Assembly (NCBI GenBank): GCA_903929795.1
Contig: CAIYWC010000113.1
Coordinates: 1 to 64,000, forward strand
Source of the DNA: an uncultured Myxococcales bacterium
GTDB lineage: Bacteria; Myxococcota_A; UBA9042
DNA length: 64,000 bases
Reading direction: 5' to 3'
Part shown: piece after piece, positions 50,435 to 59,310 of the stretch
Layout of the letters: each line of letters begins with the position of its first letter
Position numbering within the stretch: position 1 is the stretch's first letter
The notes under the pieces: model-generated
Database searches by the model: none
What the model was told of the DNA's origin: nothing
Seen by the model: only the letters and a program-made list of their open reading frames with translations
Program-made: the position numbers and the translations under genes

Positions 50435-51514
50435 ATGCCAGCGCTCGACGACAAGACGCCGCCGCGGCCGCACGCGCGCAAGGCGCATTCGGTGCTGGTC
50501 ACCGGCGCGACCGGCTTTTTGGGCCGCCACGTGCTGACGGCGATCCGCGCGCTGGAGCCGGACACCCACATCTGCGCTCTCGTGCGCAACCCCGCGGAAT
50601 GGCACGCGATGGACTGGACGGAAGCGCTGGGTCAGGTGGACCTGATCGAGGGCGGCGTGACCGGCGACGACGCCTGGACCCGCGATCCGCGGCTGAACGG
50701 CTTGGGCGGCATCGTGCACCTGGCGGCCGTCGTGCGCCATGCGCGCCACAATCCGCAGGACATCTACGACACCAACATCGGCGGCCTGTTGCGCATGGTG
50801 CGGCTGGCGGGCAAGCACGCGTGCCGCATCGTCTTTGTGTCCACGTCGGGGACGGTCGCTTGCTTCAATCGGCCCGATAAGTTCGCGCTGGAGGATGCGC
50901 CCTACGTCGACCAGACGGTCCGGAACTGGCCGTATTACGACAGCAAAATTCAGGCGGAGAAGCAGGCGCGGATGCTGGCGGCGGAGTTGGGCGTCAGCTT
51001 GACGGTCATGCGGCCGCCCGTGCTGCTGGGTCCGGGCGACCACAAGTTTCGCTCGACCGGCCATGTGATCAAGCACTTGCGGCGGCAATTTCCGTTTCTG
51101 ATTCATGGCGGGATGCACTTTGTCGACGTGCGGGACGTGGCGGCGGCGATCGTGCGCGCGCTGCGTCACCCCGCAGCGCGGCCGGTGTACCATCTGGGTG
51201 GGACAGCGACCTCGATCGAGGCATTTTTCCGCATGGTTCAGGACGTCTCGGGCGTGCCTGCGCCCACGCGCGTGGTCCCGCAGGCGCTGGCGTGGGCGCT
51301 CGCGGCGGCGGCACAGGCGACGGCTGAGCGCCTGCCGGGTCAGCCCAAGTCGCCGTTTCCCGACCCGGTCGTCATCGAGATGGCCAGCCACTGGTGGGCC
51401 ATCCATTCGCGCTACGCAGAGGCCGAGCTGGGCTACATTTCCCGCCCACCGTTCCAAACGCTGGCCGATACCGTGACCTGGCTGCGCGCGCACCATCCCG
51501 GGCTGCGGCCGTAG
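50435..51514 (+). CDS. Extended SDR (NAD-dependent epimerase/dehydratase-like), third gene of the ether-lipid operon
   Basis: 359 residues starting one base after the previous stop. The cofactor motif is VTGATGFLGRHVL, followed by HLAAVVRHARH, VSTSGTVAC and YDSKIQAEKQA, where YxxxK is Tyr-Asp-Ser-Lys. MRPPVLLGPGD and HFVDVRDVAAAIV follow the extended SDR pattern of 3-beta-HSD-like enzymes. Its operon position suggests reduction of the keto group of alkyl- or acyl-DHAP. That step belongs to another SDR-type reductase in eukaryotes, so the role is inference. Confidence 0.85.
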   Translation: MPALDDKTPPRPHARKAHSVLVTGATGFLGRHVLTAIRALEPDTHICALVRNPAEWHAMDWTEALGQVDLIEGGVTGDDAWTRDPRLNGLGGIVHLAAVVRHARHNPQDIYDTNIGGLLRMVRLAGKHACRIVFVSTSGTVACFNRPDKFALEDAPYVDQTVRNWPYYDSKIQAEKQARMLAAELGVSLTVMRPPVLLGPGDHKFRSTGHVIKHLRRQFPFLIHGGMHFVDVRDVAAAIVRALRHPAARPVYHLGGTATSIEAFFRMVQDVSGVPAPTRVVPQALAWALAAAAQATAERLPGQPKSPFPDPVVIEMASHWWAIHSRYAEAELGYISRPPFQTLADTVTWLRAHHPGLRP

Positions 51515-51576
51515 CCCGCTTGCGGCCCGCGCGATTGCGCTTATCCTGTAGCAGGACTTGGCTCTGGAGGATTTCC

Positions 51577-52539
51577 ATGCGTGGCTATTTTCTGATGATC
51601 TCCGGCGTTTCCGTGCTTGGCATGAGCGGCTGCTGGTTGGACAACGGCAGCACGCCGGTGACCACGGACACCGCCAGCGGGGACGACACCCAAATCAGCG
51701 GGTCGGATGCGATCAGCGGCACCGACGCGTCTAGCGGCACCGACGCGATGAGCGGCACCGATGTCAGCGCAGACACGGACACCGCGAGCGGCGACGTCAC
51801 AATCGGCTGCACGGTCGGCACCGACACCTGCGGCGCCGGAAAATTCTGCTCCGCGCCCACCGGCCAATGCGGCGGCACCGGCACCTGCGCGGCCAAGCCG
51901 CAAGTCTGCCCGATGGATTGCGGCGCGTTTTGCGGCTGCGACGGCAAAGCATACTGCAACGAGTGCATCGCGAACGGCGCCGGCGTCGTGCTCGCCCACA
52001 GCGGCGCTTGTGGCGCGGCGACCCAGTGGTTTACCACCTGCGGCGCGCCGGTCTGCAGCGGCGTCAAGCCGATCCCCGGTGTCGCAGCGTGCACGACCCA
52101 AAAGGCCGGTGACGCGTGTACGGCGGGCGCTGCGCCTTGCGACTTGCAGAACGCGTGCCAACAGGAGTTGACCTGCACCGACAAGGATCCGAAGCTGAAC
52201 CCGGGCGGCTGCCCAATCTCGCGCCGGGCCAAGAAAACTGACATCCGCTACCTGGACGCGGACGACGTCGCCAAGCTGCAAACGGAGCTGCTGGCGACCA
52301 AGCTCGCGACCTACAAGTACCGCGACGCCGGTCCGCAGGCGCCGCAGCAGCTGGGTTTCATCATCGATGACCAGCCCGACAGCCCTGCGGTGGACGCGCG
52401 GCGGGACATGGTCGACCTGTACGGCTACCTGTCGATGTCGGTGGCGGCGCTGCAGGCGCAGCAAAAGCAGCTGGTGCAGCAGGCCCGGCGCATCGAACAG
52501 CTGGAAGCTGCGGTGCGCGACGCGTCGGTCTGCCGGTAG
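51577..52539 (+). CDS. Lipoprotein with Kazal-like Cys domain and S74-type intramolecular chaperone end
   Basis: 320 residues. The signal MRGYFLMISGVSVLGMSGC carries a lipobox. A Ser/Gly/Asp/Thr linker (GTDASSGTDAMSGTD) follows. Residues 75-150 form Cys-rich modules: CGAGKFCSAPTGQC and CGCDGKAYCNECIANGAG, the latter like a Kazal core. The C-terminal 100 residues (ISRRAKKTDIRYLDADDV ... LGFIIDDQP) resemble the S74 chaperone/autoprocessing domain of phage tail fibres, closing with a coiled coil (VAALQAQQKQLVQQARRIEQ). The usual SDxRxK start is SRRAKK here, so autocleavage is uncertain. GGAGG precedes ATG 51577. Confidence 0.75.
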   Translation: MRGYFLMISGVSVLGMSGCWLDNGSTPVTTDTASGDDTQISGSDAISGTDASSGTDAMSGTDVSADTDTASGDVTIGCTVGTDTCGAGKFCSAPTGQCGGTGTCAAKPQVCPMDCGAFCGCDGKAYCNECIANGAGVVLAHSGACGAATQWFTTCGAPVCSGVKPIPGVAACTTQKAGDACTAGAAPCDLQNACQQELTCTDKDPKLNPGGCPISRRAKKTDIRYLDADDVAKLQTELLATKLATYKYRDAGPQAPQQLGFIIDDQPDSPAVDARRDMVDLYGYLSMSVAALQAQQKQLVQQARRIEQLEAAVRDASVCR

Positions 52540-52651: not shown

Positions 52652-53374
52652 CTACAAGCCCAGCAAAGTCTTGCAGTCCGCCAGCACCGACGCCGGGTGG
52701 CTGGTCAGGTTGTTGTTCACCATGAACGCAGAGTACGTCAGCACCTGCGTGCCTGAGTCGTCCAGCACGACGGTCACGCGGTCAGCTGCGCCTTGCGTCT
52801 TCGTGGTCGCCGCGCCGTAATAAAGCGCCAGCTCGCGACCGAGGTCACTCCACAGCGCAAAGGCAAAGTTGTCGGAGGCCTTGAACGCGGCGTTTTTGGC
52901 CGCGGAATCGAATGAAACGCCGATGATGGTCACGCCAATCGCGTCAAAGTCGCTTTGGAGGTCGCGGAACCCGCAACCCTCGATCGTTCAACCTGCGGTC
53001 GATGCTGCCGGATAGAACCAGAGCACCGTCCAGTGGCCTTGCAAAGCGTCCGGCGTCACCTTCGCGCCGGTCACGTCGACGACCTTGGAAAACGTCGGCG
53101 GATCGAGCGGCGGATTGACGAGCGCGCCGATCGTTTTCACCGGCTTCTTGACGTCCTGGCCGGTATCGACCGCCACGTCCGGCTGGACATCGGCTGCCGC
53201 CACATCGGCGACGGCTGGGGCGTCCCCGGCTGCCGTGTCCGCAACCGCGGCGCTATCCTGGGCGACATCCTGGACAGCAGCGGAGCCGCCGCCACCCGCC
53301 GCCGCCGAGCCACAGGCGACAAGCCCAAGCCACGCCAAGACACCCAACCAACCTGACCGCCATTGCCGATTCAT
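52652..53374 (-). CDS. Selenocysteine-containing peroxiredoxin lipoprotein (Bcp/PrxQ type, in-frame TGA)
   Basis: 240 residues when TGA 52988-52990 is read as selenocysteine (residue 129). The signal ends in the lipobox LVAC, and a long Ala/Asp/Val-rich linker follows. The domain begins VNPPLDPPTF. The active site reads TVLWFYPAASTAG-Sec-TIEGCGFRD, matching the FYPKxxTPGCTxEACGFRD of Bcp with Sec at the peroxidatic Cys and Cys134 at the resolving position (+5). The frame continues unbroken through VTIIGVSFDS, LWSDLGRELALYYGA and RVTVVLDDSG, all Bcp landmarks. The protein would reduce peroxides in the envelope using a thiol partner. A SECIS-like hairpin follows the TGA. ATG 53374 overlaps the stop of the upstream gene (ATGA). 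Conceptual translation without Sec would wrongly give two small proteins. Confidence 0.88.
52958..52990 (-). promoter_or_regulatory. SECIS-like hairpin with its UGA selenocysteine codon
   Basis: On the minus strand the UGA (52990-52988) is followed by ACGATC, then a hairpin. Arm GAGGGTTGCGG (52981-52971) pairs with CCGCGACCTC (52967-52958) around the loop GTT. One G is bulged and one U-G pair occurs. The apical loop starts with G and lies 17 bases after UGA, inside the spacing and loop rules known for bacterial SECIS elements. SelB would recognise it. Confidence 0.75.
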
Positions 53375-54465
53375 GCGTCCCCCTCTGGATGAAGCCTCGC
53401 TTCCTGAGCCGCGACTACACTATCGAAACTCCGCTCAACCGCAACCAAAATATCGCGCAGCCACAAAAGATACGCGTCCGGCAGCCCCACCGTGCGCTCG
53501 GTCAGGATGCGCTCCAACTCTTCCAGGCGGTCGCAGTGCGTCGCCAACCACGCGCGATCGCGCTTGGCCTTGTCGCCCGCGATCTGCTGGCGCCAGTTGA
53601 GGTACAGCGCGTGTCCCAGCGCGTGCAGCTCCGCCATCGGCGCCGGCGCCCGCGCTTGCAGCCCAGCGGTCACCGCCCGTTCGTCCTGCCAGTGCACGAG
53701 TAGTTCTGCGGCGCGCTGCACCCGTTTTTCGTGAGAATCCGCCATGTTGGCGTGGCGCAGCGCCATCAGCGTCCCCAGCGCACTGTCCAGCGTGCCGATC
53801 AGCCGATCCAGCAGTGCCAGTCGCCGCAGGTGTCGCGGCACGCCCAGCACCAGCGCCTGCCAGTCCGCCTCCAGGTTGGCCAGCACCTCCGCCAGCCCCG
53901 CGGCTTGCTCCTCGCGGCTTCCCGCGCGCCAGGCCGCCTGCAGTTCGTCGCGCTCGGACAGGAAAAAGCCGATGAACTGGCCCACCGCGCTCACTTCCTC
54001 CGCCACCGACGGCACCTGCAGGCGTTTAGCCAGTGGTTCCAATTGCTTCCACAGCACCAGCAGATCGTCGATCATCTCCTTCAGCCGCCCGGGATCGCGC
54101 GTCCGCCGCGTCTGGCCGGCAAAATGCCGGACGTAGCGGTGCAGCACCAGCCGCCCGCGGCCCGTCAGCAGGCTCGCCTCGCGATCGCGCAGGCCCGCGA
54201 CCGCGTGCGCCTGGGCGATCGCGCCGCGCGCCTCCGTGTACAGCTCCAGCCGCCGCGCCAGCGCCAGCGCCAGCCGAGGCCAGTCGTCCCCGAGCTGCTC
54301 CGGCGCCTCCATCGCGGCCTGGGCGGCGATCGCCTGGGCGTCGGCGATCAGCGCATCCAGCTGTCGCAAGTCGCGGGTCAGCCGCACGTGGTCGACAAAG
54401 TGCAGCTGAAAGCGCAAGTGCAGCTCGTCCAGGCGGTGCAGCAATTCTGAAGCGGCGTGGGGCAC
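53371..54465 (-). CDS. Hypothetical alpha-helical protein, coupled to the selenoprotein gene
   Basis: 364 residues from GTG 54465, chosen because GGAGGTTCCCC lies upstream. The sequence is almost wholly helical with many Arg, Leu and Ala residues and heptad-like stretches (LTRDLRQLDALIADAQAI, LEELERILTERT). There is no signal peptide or recognised domain. Its stop overlaps the start of the selenocysteine peroxiredoxin by four bases, so the two are translated together. A regulatory or structural role is possible, but no function can be named. Confidence 0.75.
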   Translation of the reverse strand: MPHAASELLHRLDELHLRFQLHFVDHVRLTRDLRQLDALIADAQAIAAQAAMEAPEQLGDDWPRLALALARRLELYTEARGAIAQAHAVAGLRDREASLLTGRGRLVLHRYVRHFAGQTRRTRDPGRLKEMIDDLLVLWKQLEPLAKRLQVPSVAEEVSAVGQFIGFFLSERDELQAAWRAGSREEQAAGLAEVLANLEADWQALVLGVPRHLRRLALLDRLIGTLDSALGTLMALRHANMADSHEKRVQRAAELLVHWQDERAVTAGLQARAPAPMAELHALGHALYLNWRQQIAGDKAKRDRAWLATHCDRLEELERILTERTVGLPDAYLLWLRDILVAVERSFDSVVAAQEARLHPEGDA

Positions 54466-54847
54466 GGGGAACCTCCGGGCGCGCTGGCCCGCGGGCACTG
54501 GCTATCGGATTTTCGGCCGCGCGGCAAGGACAGGCCATCCACGCTCGCGGAAGTTTGGGCTCAAGCGTCCGACTGCCGCGGCGCGCCCGCTTTGGGCACG
54601 CGCGCGGTCCAGTCCGCAATGCAACAGGTCCAACCTTCGCGCATTTGGATGCGCACACAGGCGTTCTCGCACAAGCGTCACGTCTCCGTCACGGCCGCCC
54701 GCCATGCCGTTGCCCAAGCAAGTCGCGGGTCTATACTCAGCGCGGCAGCCGCCGTCTGGGACTGCCGGCAAGGTTCTATCGGGAACCAAGCGGCCTCGCG
54801 CCAACGACGCCAAGACCGTACGGTCCCCCTCGCACAAGAGGTGTCGT
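54466..54847. other. 382-base divergent region between the helical-protein gene and the EF-G paralogue gene
   Basis: It contains the promoter at 54710-54737 for the EF-G-like gene. The left half has the upstream region of the minus-strand operon without a convincing promoter. No gene or RNA is seen. Confidence 0.45.
54710..54737 (+). promoter_or_regulatory. Sigma-70-type promoter of the EF-G-like gene
   Basis: TTGCCC (54710-54715) and TATACT (54732-54737) are spaced by 16 bases, about 110 bases before the start codon. Confidence 0.5.
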
Positions 54848-56904: not shown

Positions 56905-59085
56905 CTAAGGCGGCAAGAAGCAGTTCGGAATCGGCGTGTAGTTGCACCAGCCCGTCAGGCACGCGTCGAGCGTGCAGGGGTTGCCGTCGTTGCACATGCT
57001 GTCCGCCTTGCATGCCGTCGCCGTGCAGCCGGGGATGGGCGCATTGGAGCAGCTGCCGTTCGCCGCGTTGCACTGGTCGGCGGTGCACGGGTTGCCGTCG
57101 TCGCAGGTTACCGTCTTGTGCGCGCACTGGTTGTTCAGGCACAAGTCGCCGGTGCAGTTGTTGAAATCATTGCACTCCGCGTTGGTCTTGCACGGCGCGA
57201 CGCCGCAGCCGGGCGCGCTGATGTGCGCGCAGGTGTAGGTCGTCGTGTCGCAGTAATCCTTGGTGCACGGGTCGCTGTCGATGCAGTCCGTGTCCATTTT
57301 GCAGAACTGGACCGCGCAGTTCGGCATTGGAATGTTCTGGCAGTTGCCCGACGGATCGCACAAATCGGTGGTGCACGGGTTGCCGTCGTTGCACATCGTC
57401 GGGTCGCAAGGCTTGGTGCAGCCGGGGATCGGCGTCCAGGTGCAGCCGCCGGTCGACGCGTCGCAGCCGTCCGTTGTGCAGGGGTTGCCGTCGTCGCAAT
57501 ACGCCGGATTGCAGCAGTTGGGGATGGTGCCGTAGAGGCAAACGCCGCTGGGCACGTCGCATTTGGCGAGCGTGCACACGTCGCCCGCGGTGCAGTCCTT
57601 GTCGCTGGCGCATTTCAGGATGCAACCGGGGATCGGGTTCGCGGTGCAGTTCCCGGTCGGATCGCAGCCCACCTGTGTGCACGCGTCGGCGCCGGGACAG
57701 GTCGTGGGCGCGCTGGAGGTCGGGTCGCAGCAGTACGGCTGGCTCAGGTTGAACTTGTGGTTGCACGTGCCGCCCTTCGACGAGAGCAGGCAGAAGTCGC
57801 TCGTGCACAGGTTGCCGTCATCGCACTGGGCGTCGCTGGTGCAGCCGGTCTGGCCGCAGCCGGGGATCGGCGTGGAGATGCACATGCCGGTGGCCGGGTC
57901 GCAGGACGCCAACATGCACGGATCCGAGCTGCCGCACGCGATTCCGCTGTAGGCGCACTGGCCGCCCGCGCACATGTCCTGCGTGCACGCGTTGTTGTCG
58001 TTGCAGTCGGTGTTGGTCTTGCAGCCGGGGCCGCCGCAGCCGGGCATGGGCAGGTATTGGCACTGGAAGTTCATGCCGCAGCTGTCCGCCGTGCACGGGT
58101 TGCCGTCGTAGCAGGTGATTGAATTCATGAAGGGATCGCAGCAGATGCCCTTTTGGCTCAAGTCGCCGGAGTGCGTGCACGTGCCCATGCCGGTCGGGTC
58201 GAACTGGCACTTGTCGATCGAGCACTTGATGCCATCGTCGCACTGCGCGTCGCTGCTGCAGCCGGTCTGGCCGCAGTTGGGGATGGCGATGTTGAGGCAG
58301 GTGCCACCCTTGCAGTAATCGGTGGTGCAGGAGTTGCCGTCGTTGCACTGGGCGTCGACCTGACAGCCGGTCTGGCCGCAGTTGGGGATTTTCGTGTACA
58401 TGCAGCCGCCGCTCTGGGGGTCGCAGTACGCGCTTGTGCACGGGTCGGAGGTGGCGCAGCCGATGAAGGCGTAGGCGCACTGGCCGCCGGAGCACATGTC
58501 CTGGGTGCAGGCGTTGCCGTCGTTGCAGTCCGTGTTGGTCTTGCAGCCGGGGCCGCCACAGCCGGGAATCGCGGTGAAGATACAGCCGCCAGTGGCATCG
58601 CACAGGTCCTGTGTGCACGGATTCCCGTCATCGCACGGCACGGACGGCGCGATGCACTGGCCGTTCTGGCAGCTGCCGGGGCCGATGCAGCCGGTCGGTT
58701 GCGGGCCGCAAGCTGTGCCATCGGGCGCGGTGTAGAACACGCAGACGTGGCTGGTCTGGTCGCAGACGCCCTTGGCGCACGGCGACGATGGGCAGTTGCT
58801 GTCGGCCTTGCAGCCGATGGGCCCGATGTCCTGGACCCAGATGTCCGGGTAGCTGACGCCGTCGAGCGTGCCGGTGTCGTGATCCCAGATACCGTCGATG
58901 CCCCAAGTGTCGGATGGGTTGCCGGCGTCGTCGCTCCCGCTGTCGCTCAGCAGGATGTCGCTGCCGCCGCCGCTGGCGTCGTCATTGACCTGCTGGCCAG
59001 CAACGGCCACGTCCGAACCGCAGCCCGCGAGCCCGAAAAGGCCGAGCACAGCCGCTGTCGCCGCGATGTGTGTCCACTTTGCCAT
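56905..59085 (-). CDS. Cys-rich repeat lipoprotein with CNDGNxCT modules
   Basis: 726 residues. MAKWTHIAATAAVLGLFGLAGC is a lipoprotein signal with GGGAGGA before ATG 59085; the longer upstream frame is not supported. An Asp/Gly/Ser linker precedes about a dozen modules of roughly 50 residues. These alternate CDDGNPCTQDLCD with GCKTNTDCNDGNACTQDMC and are joined by IPGCGGPGC or IPNCGQTGC links, a variant different from the other Cys-rich proteins in this window. There is no globular domain. It converges with the EF-G-like gene (stops 15 bases apart). A sigma-54-like promoter lies upstream. Confidence 0.82.
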   Translation of the reverse strand: MAKWTHIAATAAVLGLFGLAGCGSDVAVAGQQVNDDASGGGSDILLSDSGSDDAGNPSDTWGIDGIWDHDTGTLDGVSYPDIWVQDIGPIGCKADSNCPSSPCAKGVCDQTSHVCVFYTAPDGTACGPQPTGCIGPGSCQNGQCIAPSVPCDDGNPCTQDLCDATGGCIFTAIPGCGGPGCKTNTDCNDGNACTQDMCSGGQCAYAFIGCATSDPCTSAYCDPQSGGCMYTKIPNCGQTGCQVDAQCNDGNSCTTDYCKGGTCLNIAIPNCGQTGCSSDAQCDDGIKCSIDKCQFDPTGMGTCTHSGDLSQKGICCDPFMNSITCYDGNPCTADSCGMNFQCQYLPMPGCGGPGCKTNTDCNDNNACTQDMCAGGQCAYSGIACGSSDPCMLASCDPATGMCISTPIPGCGQTGCTSDAQCDDGNLCTSDFCLLSSKGGTCNHKFNLSQPYCCDPTSSAPTTCPGADACTQVGCDPTGNCTANPIPGCILKCASDKDCTAGDVCTLAKCDVPSGVCLYGTIPNCCNPAYCDDGNPCTTDGCDASTGGCTWTPIPGCTKPCDPTMCNDGNPCTTDLCDPSGNCQNIPMPNCAVQFCKMDTDCIDSDPCTKDYCDTTTYTCAHISAPGCGVAPCKTNAECNDFNNCTGDLCLNNQCAHKTVTCDDGNPCTADQCNAANGSCSNAPIPGCTATACKADSMCNDGNPCTLDACLTGWCNYTPIPNCFLPP

Positions 59086-59136
59086 GACGTCCTCCCTGCG
59101 CGCGCCGTGACCTGCGCCCGGCGCACTACGTGGTGT

Positions 59137-59152
59137 TGCAGGAAGTGTGCCA
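59137..59152 (-). promoter_or_regulatory. Possible sigma-54 (-24/-12) promoter of the Cys-rich lipoprotein gene
   Basis: On the minus strand TGGCACACTTCCTGCA has GG and GC elements exactly 12 bases apart, matching TGGCAC-N5-TTGC with one change (CTGC). The transcript would start about 40 bases before the ATG. No activator site was identified. Confidence 0.4.
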
Positions 59153-59310
59153 TGTTCCGGACCGGCGCGCCAGTACCGGTAGCGCGGCGGAACGGCTTGA
59201 AGCTTCAACTGAATCACCGATGCCAGCGCCGCCGGGAAACCCAGAGCGGCGCCGCGCGTCGGCGATCGGTGTCGGAAAACTCCACACACTGATGGATTTT
59301 CCAACAAACG

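Follow-up and report, generated by a model that had tools for sequence, protein, structure and literature searches.

The question raised by this locus is whether an in-frame TGA ends a short lipoprotein, as a gene finder would have it, or is read as selenocysteine (Sec) within a longer one. The coordinates proposed in a first-pass annotation, 52652-53374 of the window (the whole stretch of DNA that was analysed, 64,000 nucleotides from an uncultured Myxococcales bacterium), are correct, and the gene lies on the minus strand. Read from 53374 to 52652 with the TGA as a residue, it translates into 240 residues with this single in-frame TGA. The active-site stretch W-F-Y-P-x-A-x-T-x-G-U, a Cys at +5 and the segments FRDL, GVSFD and WSD that follow are all in the same frame. 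Under the standard code, the list of open reading frames contains only two fragments of the gene, 53374-52988 (128 aa) and 52933-52652 (93 aa), which is the split that the first-pass annotation had foreseen, and the gene is overlooked by ordinary gene finding because UGA resembles a stop. Taking all of the evidence below together, we consider it very probable that the gene encodes a Sec-containing, exported and lipid-anchored PrxQ peroxidase.

Table 1. Features of the candidate Sec-PrxQ gene, with positions in the window and the basis of each assignment or detail of the feature.
Feature	Position	Strand	Basis or detail
Sec-PrxQ lipoprotein gene	52652..53374	-	ATG 53374-53372, stop TAG 52654-52652
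Predicted signal peptide with lipobox LVA^C, predicted lipidation at Cys21	53312..53374	-	sequence
Low-complexity Ala/Asp/Val-rich linker between lipid anchor and peroxiredoxin domain	53105..53311	-	sequence
AhpC-TSA/PrxQ domain, UGA read through	52655..53104	-	PF00578, Bcp structures, alignment
UGA codon 129, proposed Sec129, at the peroxidatic cysteine position	52988..52990	-	frame, Bcp structures, homologues
bSECIS hairpin, 8 bp, loop GUU at 52970-52968	52960..52978	-	fold and covariation
Resolving Cys134 codon (UGC), within the 5' arm of the SECIS stem	52973..52975	-	sequence
Shine-Dalgarno-like AGGGGG upstream of the ATG (approximate)	53379..53384	-	sequence

The two-fragment gene call is itself an argument for taking the TGA as a true stop, in a pseudogene, through a sequencing error, or at the end of a truncated lipoprotein, the 3' end of the gene being dead. 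When the readthrough protein was used as query against the 52 genomes of the class, 22 homologues were recovered in 19 genomes, each with one in-frame TGA. The TGA was at the identical codon in 22/22, with no sense codon in its place within the closest set, and the close matches without TGA in the class were ordinary Cys Bcp proteins only (E ~1e-17 or worse). Across 379 genomes, an even sample from a larger group in a search limited to this phylum, 101 members had TGA, 31 had Cys and one had Ser at the same column; the UGA is thus aligned with the redox Cys of homologues, as is characteristic of bacterial selenoproteins. None of the 101 loci had TAA or TAG at this codon. Because TGA occupies it in all 22 class homologues and 101 phylum homologues, its chance occurrence at the peroxidatic codon is excluded. 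The protein is strongly conserved, and among three congeners dN/dS was 0.08-0.14 after the UGA compared with 0.09-0.20 before it; there is therefore no dead 3' end. The first-pass annotation had asked whether close relatives carry an ordinary stop with no conservation downstream; instead, the UGA is retained in the orthologues, with sequence conservation on either side of it. Pseudogene, sequencing error and ordinary stop were all rejected on this conservation, which leaves the true-stop reading next to no probability. A peptide-pattern search of contigs recovered two close relatives only. The member with Ser (TCC) at the peroxidatic position, L167, is a PrxQ homologue with degraded flanks and is possibly an inactive paralogue.

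The readthrough protein matches Pfam family PF00578 (AhpC-TSA, E=1e-22) over residues 99-209, spanning the UGA. Its best solved relatives are Bcp/PrxQ structures, the top one a Xanthomonas-type Bcp, and their catalytic Cys (T-P-G-C-T) faces the UGA. The alignment with Bcp/PrxQ proteins suggested in the first-pass annotation therefore agrees with its claims that the TGA falls at the Bcp catalytic Cys, that a resolving Cys follows at +5 and that other Bcp landmarks lie in frame on both sides. Within the AhpC-TSA domain the active site reads T126-A-G-U129, the T-x-x-(C/U) arrangement of Bcp/PrxQ; in the alignment, the T, G and U of this motif and an Arg downstream do not vary. A resolving Cys at +5 is a common PrxQ feature, and the corresponding Cys134 is present in 73/77 Sec members of the envelope clade described below. 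The remaining four (L038, L039, L054 and L055) lack it and therefore must have a different resolving partner. L039, L054 and L055 represent a second envelope paralogue, found in one genus, whose tether is short (50 residues) and whose resolving Cys is replaced by Arg. The window protein is a relative of the Bcp equivalog NF006960 that falls outside it (64 bits, cut-off 140). It scores 23 bits on the NCBIfam PrxU model (NF040737, cut-off 270) and falls short of the cut-off of every NCBIfam model. An AlphaFold model from a three-row alignment of the window protein and two orthologues had a pLDDT of 34.

Reading a UGA as Sec requires dedicated machinery, and the selA, selB, selC and selD genes that the first-pass annotation had named as a check were all found in the same genome. 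The tRNA-Sec (C58, anticodon TCA) scored 70.6 bits, above the family cut-off, SelA 478 bits and SelD 372 bits; SelB was above its cut-off and includes, at its C-terminus, the winged helices SelB-wing_2 and SelB-wing_3, the part of SelB that contacts the SECIS. Across the phylum sample, tRNA-Sec was detected in 75/89 genomes with a Sec-Prx gene and in 140/290 others (Fisher p=9e-10, with no phylogenetic correction). Our scan, which used strict filters, detected no tRNA-Sec in 14/89 genomes carrying the gene, many of them fragmented assemblies, and both such genomes within the class carry SelB. The converse was seen in two congeners (G034 and G035, one of them 94% complete), which have tRNA-Sec and no detectable Sec-Prx copy. 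Two of the three Cys members of the envelope clade (L094 and L095; genomes G107 and G194) have Cys in place of UGA in genomes where no tRNA-Sec was detected. Recoding of the UGA to Trp, Cys or Arg by near-cognate readthrough, independent of the Sec machinery, is extremely unlikely given the full machinery in the genome, the co-occurrence of the gene with tRNA-Sec, this replacement by Cys, and a SECIS-type hairpin with covariation. Two tRNA-Sec matches each were observed in G040, G132, G138, G155, G281 and G286.

The hairpin in the window, GGUUGCGG-GUU-CCGCGACC, extends from 52978 to 52960, with the loop G at 52970, 17 nt after the UGA. Published rules for bacterial SECIS elements specify a loop of 3-9 nt, a stem of 4-16 bp, a G in the first two loop positions, a distance of 16-37 nt from the UGA and an MFE of at most -7.5 (PMC13188914). 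With a 3-nt loop, a stem of 8-9 bp, G first in the loop, a spacing of 17 nt and an energy of -16.3 kcal/mol, the window hairpin falls within every one of these limits, in agreement with the first-pass annotation, which had pointed to a G-starting loop at this distance. The energy by itself is unremarkable, since 11% of synonymous recodings were equally stable (not significant), and the case for the element therefore rests on conservation and covariation across relatives. The form GGUUGCGG-GU(U/A)-CCGCGACC, starting 9 nt downstream of the UGA, is kept in nearly all Sec members. Standard pairs occupy 95.7% of the pair cells in the 101 Sec genes, compared with 58% for the same codons in the 31 Cys genes, and sliding one stem arm of the Sec genes by 1-3 bases lowers pairing to 40-48%. 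Compensatory double changes, such as a middle pair going from G-C to A-U or U-A, were found in 17 cells (shuffled mean 1.5, maximum 6 in 1000 shuffles). Loop base 1 is G in 97/101 and loop base 2 is U in 99/101 Sec genes.

Codon choice carries the same signal. GGT is used at +4 in 87/99 Sec genes (16% background, p=7e-56) and GGG at +6 in 89/93 (19% background, p=8e-59), the p-values being descriptive as the counts come from relatives with shared ancestry. The envelope Cys relatives L094 and L095, with nearly the same peptide (TVEGCGYRDL), use GGC and GGC/GGT at those glycines. Selection in genes that use Sec therefore acts on the RNA as well as on the protein, as seen in third positions that are frozen in Sec genes and different in these Cys genes.

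In a maximum likelihood tree of the peroxiredoxin domain, built on 149 columns and with many weak forks, the window gene belongs to a clade of 80 rows (77 Sec and 3 Cys) with support of 100/100, here referred to as the envelope clade. The other 52 rows include 24 Sec proteins, which have no signals, and 27 Cys Bcp rows in a clade of their own, so that envelope, cytosolic-looking Sec-PrxQ and ordinary Cys-PrxQ proteins form three groups. In the window protein, an N-terminal hydrophobic signal ends in the lipobox LVAC at residues 18-21, the arrangement of a lipoprotein signal. An Ala/Asp-rich linker follows, and the lipobox Cys and the UGA are 108 residues apart. A lipobox after a hydrophobic stretch was found in 71/77 envelope Sec members with a relaxed pattern applied per clade, and in L100 by eye (~72 in all). 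L104 and L133 begin with a plain stretch resembling a signal peptide, and the N-terminus is incomplete or unclear in L079, L092 and L137. The pattern was absent in the Sec members outside the envelope clade. A stricter filter, which misses very short signals and lumps in the cytosolic clade, accepted 47/101 Sec genes. Apparently very short lipoprotein signals, for example MLLLLLAC and MMLLLVAC, were seen in L101, L109, L114, L115, L116 and L134. The tether from anchor Cys to Sec spans 50-181 residues in the envelope clade and is rich in Ala, Asp, Ser and Thr.

These N-termini bear on whether the protein could be a cytosolic selenoprotein, like ordinary Bcp, with a misassigned start. Cytosolic-looking Sec-PrxQ relatives do exist (L056 and the other clade), and the lipobox calls are based on a pattern rather than a trained predictor. 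However, lipobox and hydrophobic stretch recur in ~72 of the 77 clade members, with a signal-like N-terminus in two more, the linker is divergent after a conserved anchor motif, and a Shine-Dalgarno-like AGGGGG precedes the ATG, which together make a cytosolic location very unlikely. Envelope placement had been claimed from the lipobox and the long linker; both are present, and the location itself is a prediction from sequence. In the envelope clade, the three proteins with Cys are nested inside Sec branches, which suggests a change from Sec to Cys. Among the cytosolic-looking Sec-PrxQ proteins, L142, L148, L152, L153 and L157-L164 have no resolving Cys at +5, where His, Lys, Asn, Gln, Arg or Ser is found, and have altered hairpins; these are apparent 1-Sec enzymes.

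We propose that SelB with Sec-tRNA(Sec) would bind the hairpin just 3' of the UGA and insert Sec at residue 129. The nascent protein would then be exported by the general secretory route and lipidated on Cys21, with the flexible Ala/Asp-rich tether holding it in the envelope, where the PrxQ domain may reduce H2O2 or lipid hydroperoxides. The Sec129 selenolate would attack the peroxide, and the resulting selenenic acid would form a selenenylsulfide with Cys134 at +5. A thioredoxin-like donor in the envelope would re-reduce it, with electrons probably supplied by a DsbD-type transporter; such a transporter is encoded in the window genome. A main function other than that of a peroxidase, as a thiol oxidoreductase, regulator or signalling protein of the envelope, would fit with the absence of an electron donor gene near the Sec-PrxQ gene, with neighbours that are conserved in close relatives only, and with the loss of the +5 Cys in four envelope members. 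Against such a function stand the invariant T-x-x-U active site and downstream Arg, as well as the established peroxidase activity of Bcp/PrxQ enzymes, and we regard it as unlikely. The lipid-anchored Sec-PrxQ peroxidase is the reading that we compare with known systems below.

A Bcp-type Prx with Sec as its peroxidatic residue was reportedly verified in Eubacterium acidaminophilum by Sohling et al. in 2001. Sec-containing peroxiredoxins (Prx; COG1225/PF00578, TxxU, exemplar WP_011365628.1) are an established selenoprotein family (PMC9312934, PMC13188914). The window protein shares with them the domain, the peroxidatic Sec and the T-x-x-U motif, but differs in its lipobox and long linker and in its low score on the PrxU model. 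From the same broad group as the window genome, three Sec peroxiredoxins of Anaeromyxobacter dehalogenans are listed in PMC1794560; these may be counterparts of the cytosolic Sec clade identified here. Canonical Cys Bcp/PrxQ proteins (NF006960; PDB 5iph, 3gkk) have the same fold family and active-site motif, but they have Cys for Sec, no SECIS and no anchor, and form a separate clade. Exported selenoproteins are also known, namely an MtrB/PioB beta-barrel, a multihaem cytochrome and a DsbG-like protein (PMC13188914). These likewise have Sec outside the cytoplasm, but belong to other families, and none is a lipid-anchored peroxiredoxin. A term search of the two selenoprotein reviews (PMC9312934, PMC13188914) found no mention of lipoprotein, lipobox or Myxococcota, and a partial literature search covering few subscription papers returned nothing relevant on lipoprotein selenoproteins or on selenocysteine in Myxococcota. 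The searchable literature describes no lipoprotein-anchored selenoprotein peroxiredoxin. Because the reviews are silent and NCBIfam has no model for which the protein passes, the phylum-wide, lipoprotein-anchored Sec-PrxQ subfamily appears to be new. The first-pass annotation had called an envelope selenoprotein peroxiredoxin unusual, which holds for the lipoprotein form, whereas Sec at the peroxidatic Bcp position was already known.

It is reasonably likely that a phylum-wide Sec peroxiredoxin subfamily moved to the envelope as lipoproteins and provides Myxococcota with a general, selenium-dependent defence against peroxides at the cell surface or outer membrane, with Cys re-evolving locally where Sec coding was lost. 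Gene finders that treat UGA as a stop would split or miss the gene, as seen on the ORF list of the window, and databases may therefore largely lack an enzyme that is common in the envelope of a large phylum. The results also point to a wider use of selenium in Myxococcota than the few reported selenoproteins indicate. A selenol enzyme in the form of an exported lipoprotein raises the questions of how Sec withstands export and which reductant serves it beyond the cytoplasm, for which the Sec, Cys and resolving-Cys-less members, with their strongly conserved SECIS, offer a natural series for testing.

Gene neighbourhood was not conserved beyond close relatives. The upstream 375-aa ORF, the downstream lipoprotein gene and an epimerase gene are common to the window genome and one congener, and an EF-G gene is shared with another. 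The 375-aa ORF (53371-54498, minus strand) belongs to no known family, and its TGA stop and the ATG of the Sec gene share a 4-nt overlap (ATGA), which suggests translational coupling of the two in the window genome. This ORF is kept in L052 (76%), where the overlap with the Sec gene is not obvious. The convergent downstream gene (51394-52539, plus strand), common to the window genome and one congener, seems to encode a cysteine-rich lipoprotein with a Kazal-like segment; its product had no Pfam match, and the C-terminal part resembles a phage-tail intramolecular chaperone. Further along, an 800-aa ORF (56905-59307, minus strand) contains six copies of the PF00526 'Dictyostelium (slime mold) repeat' (1.1e-45), which is unusual in bacteria.
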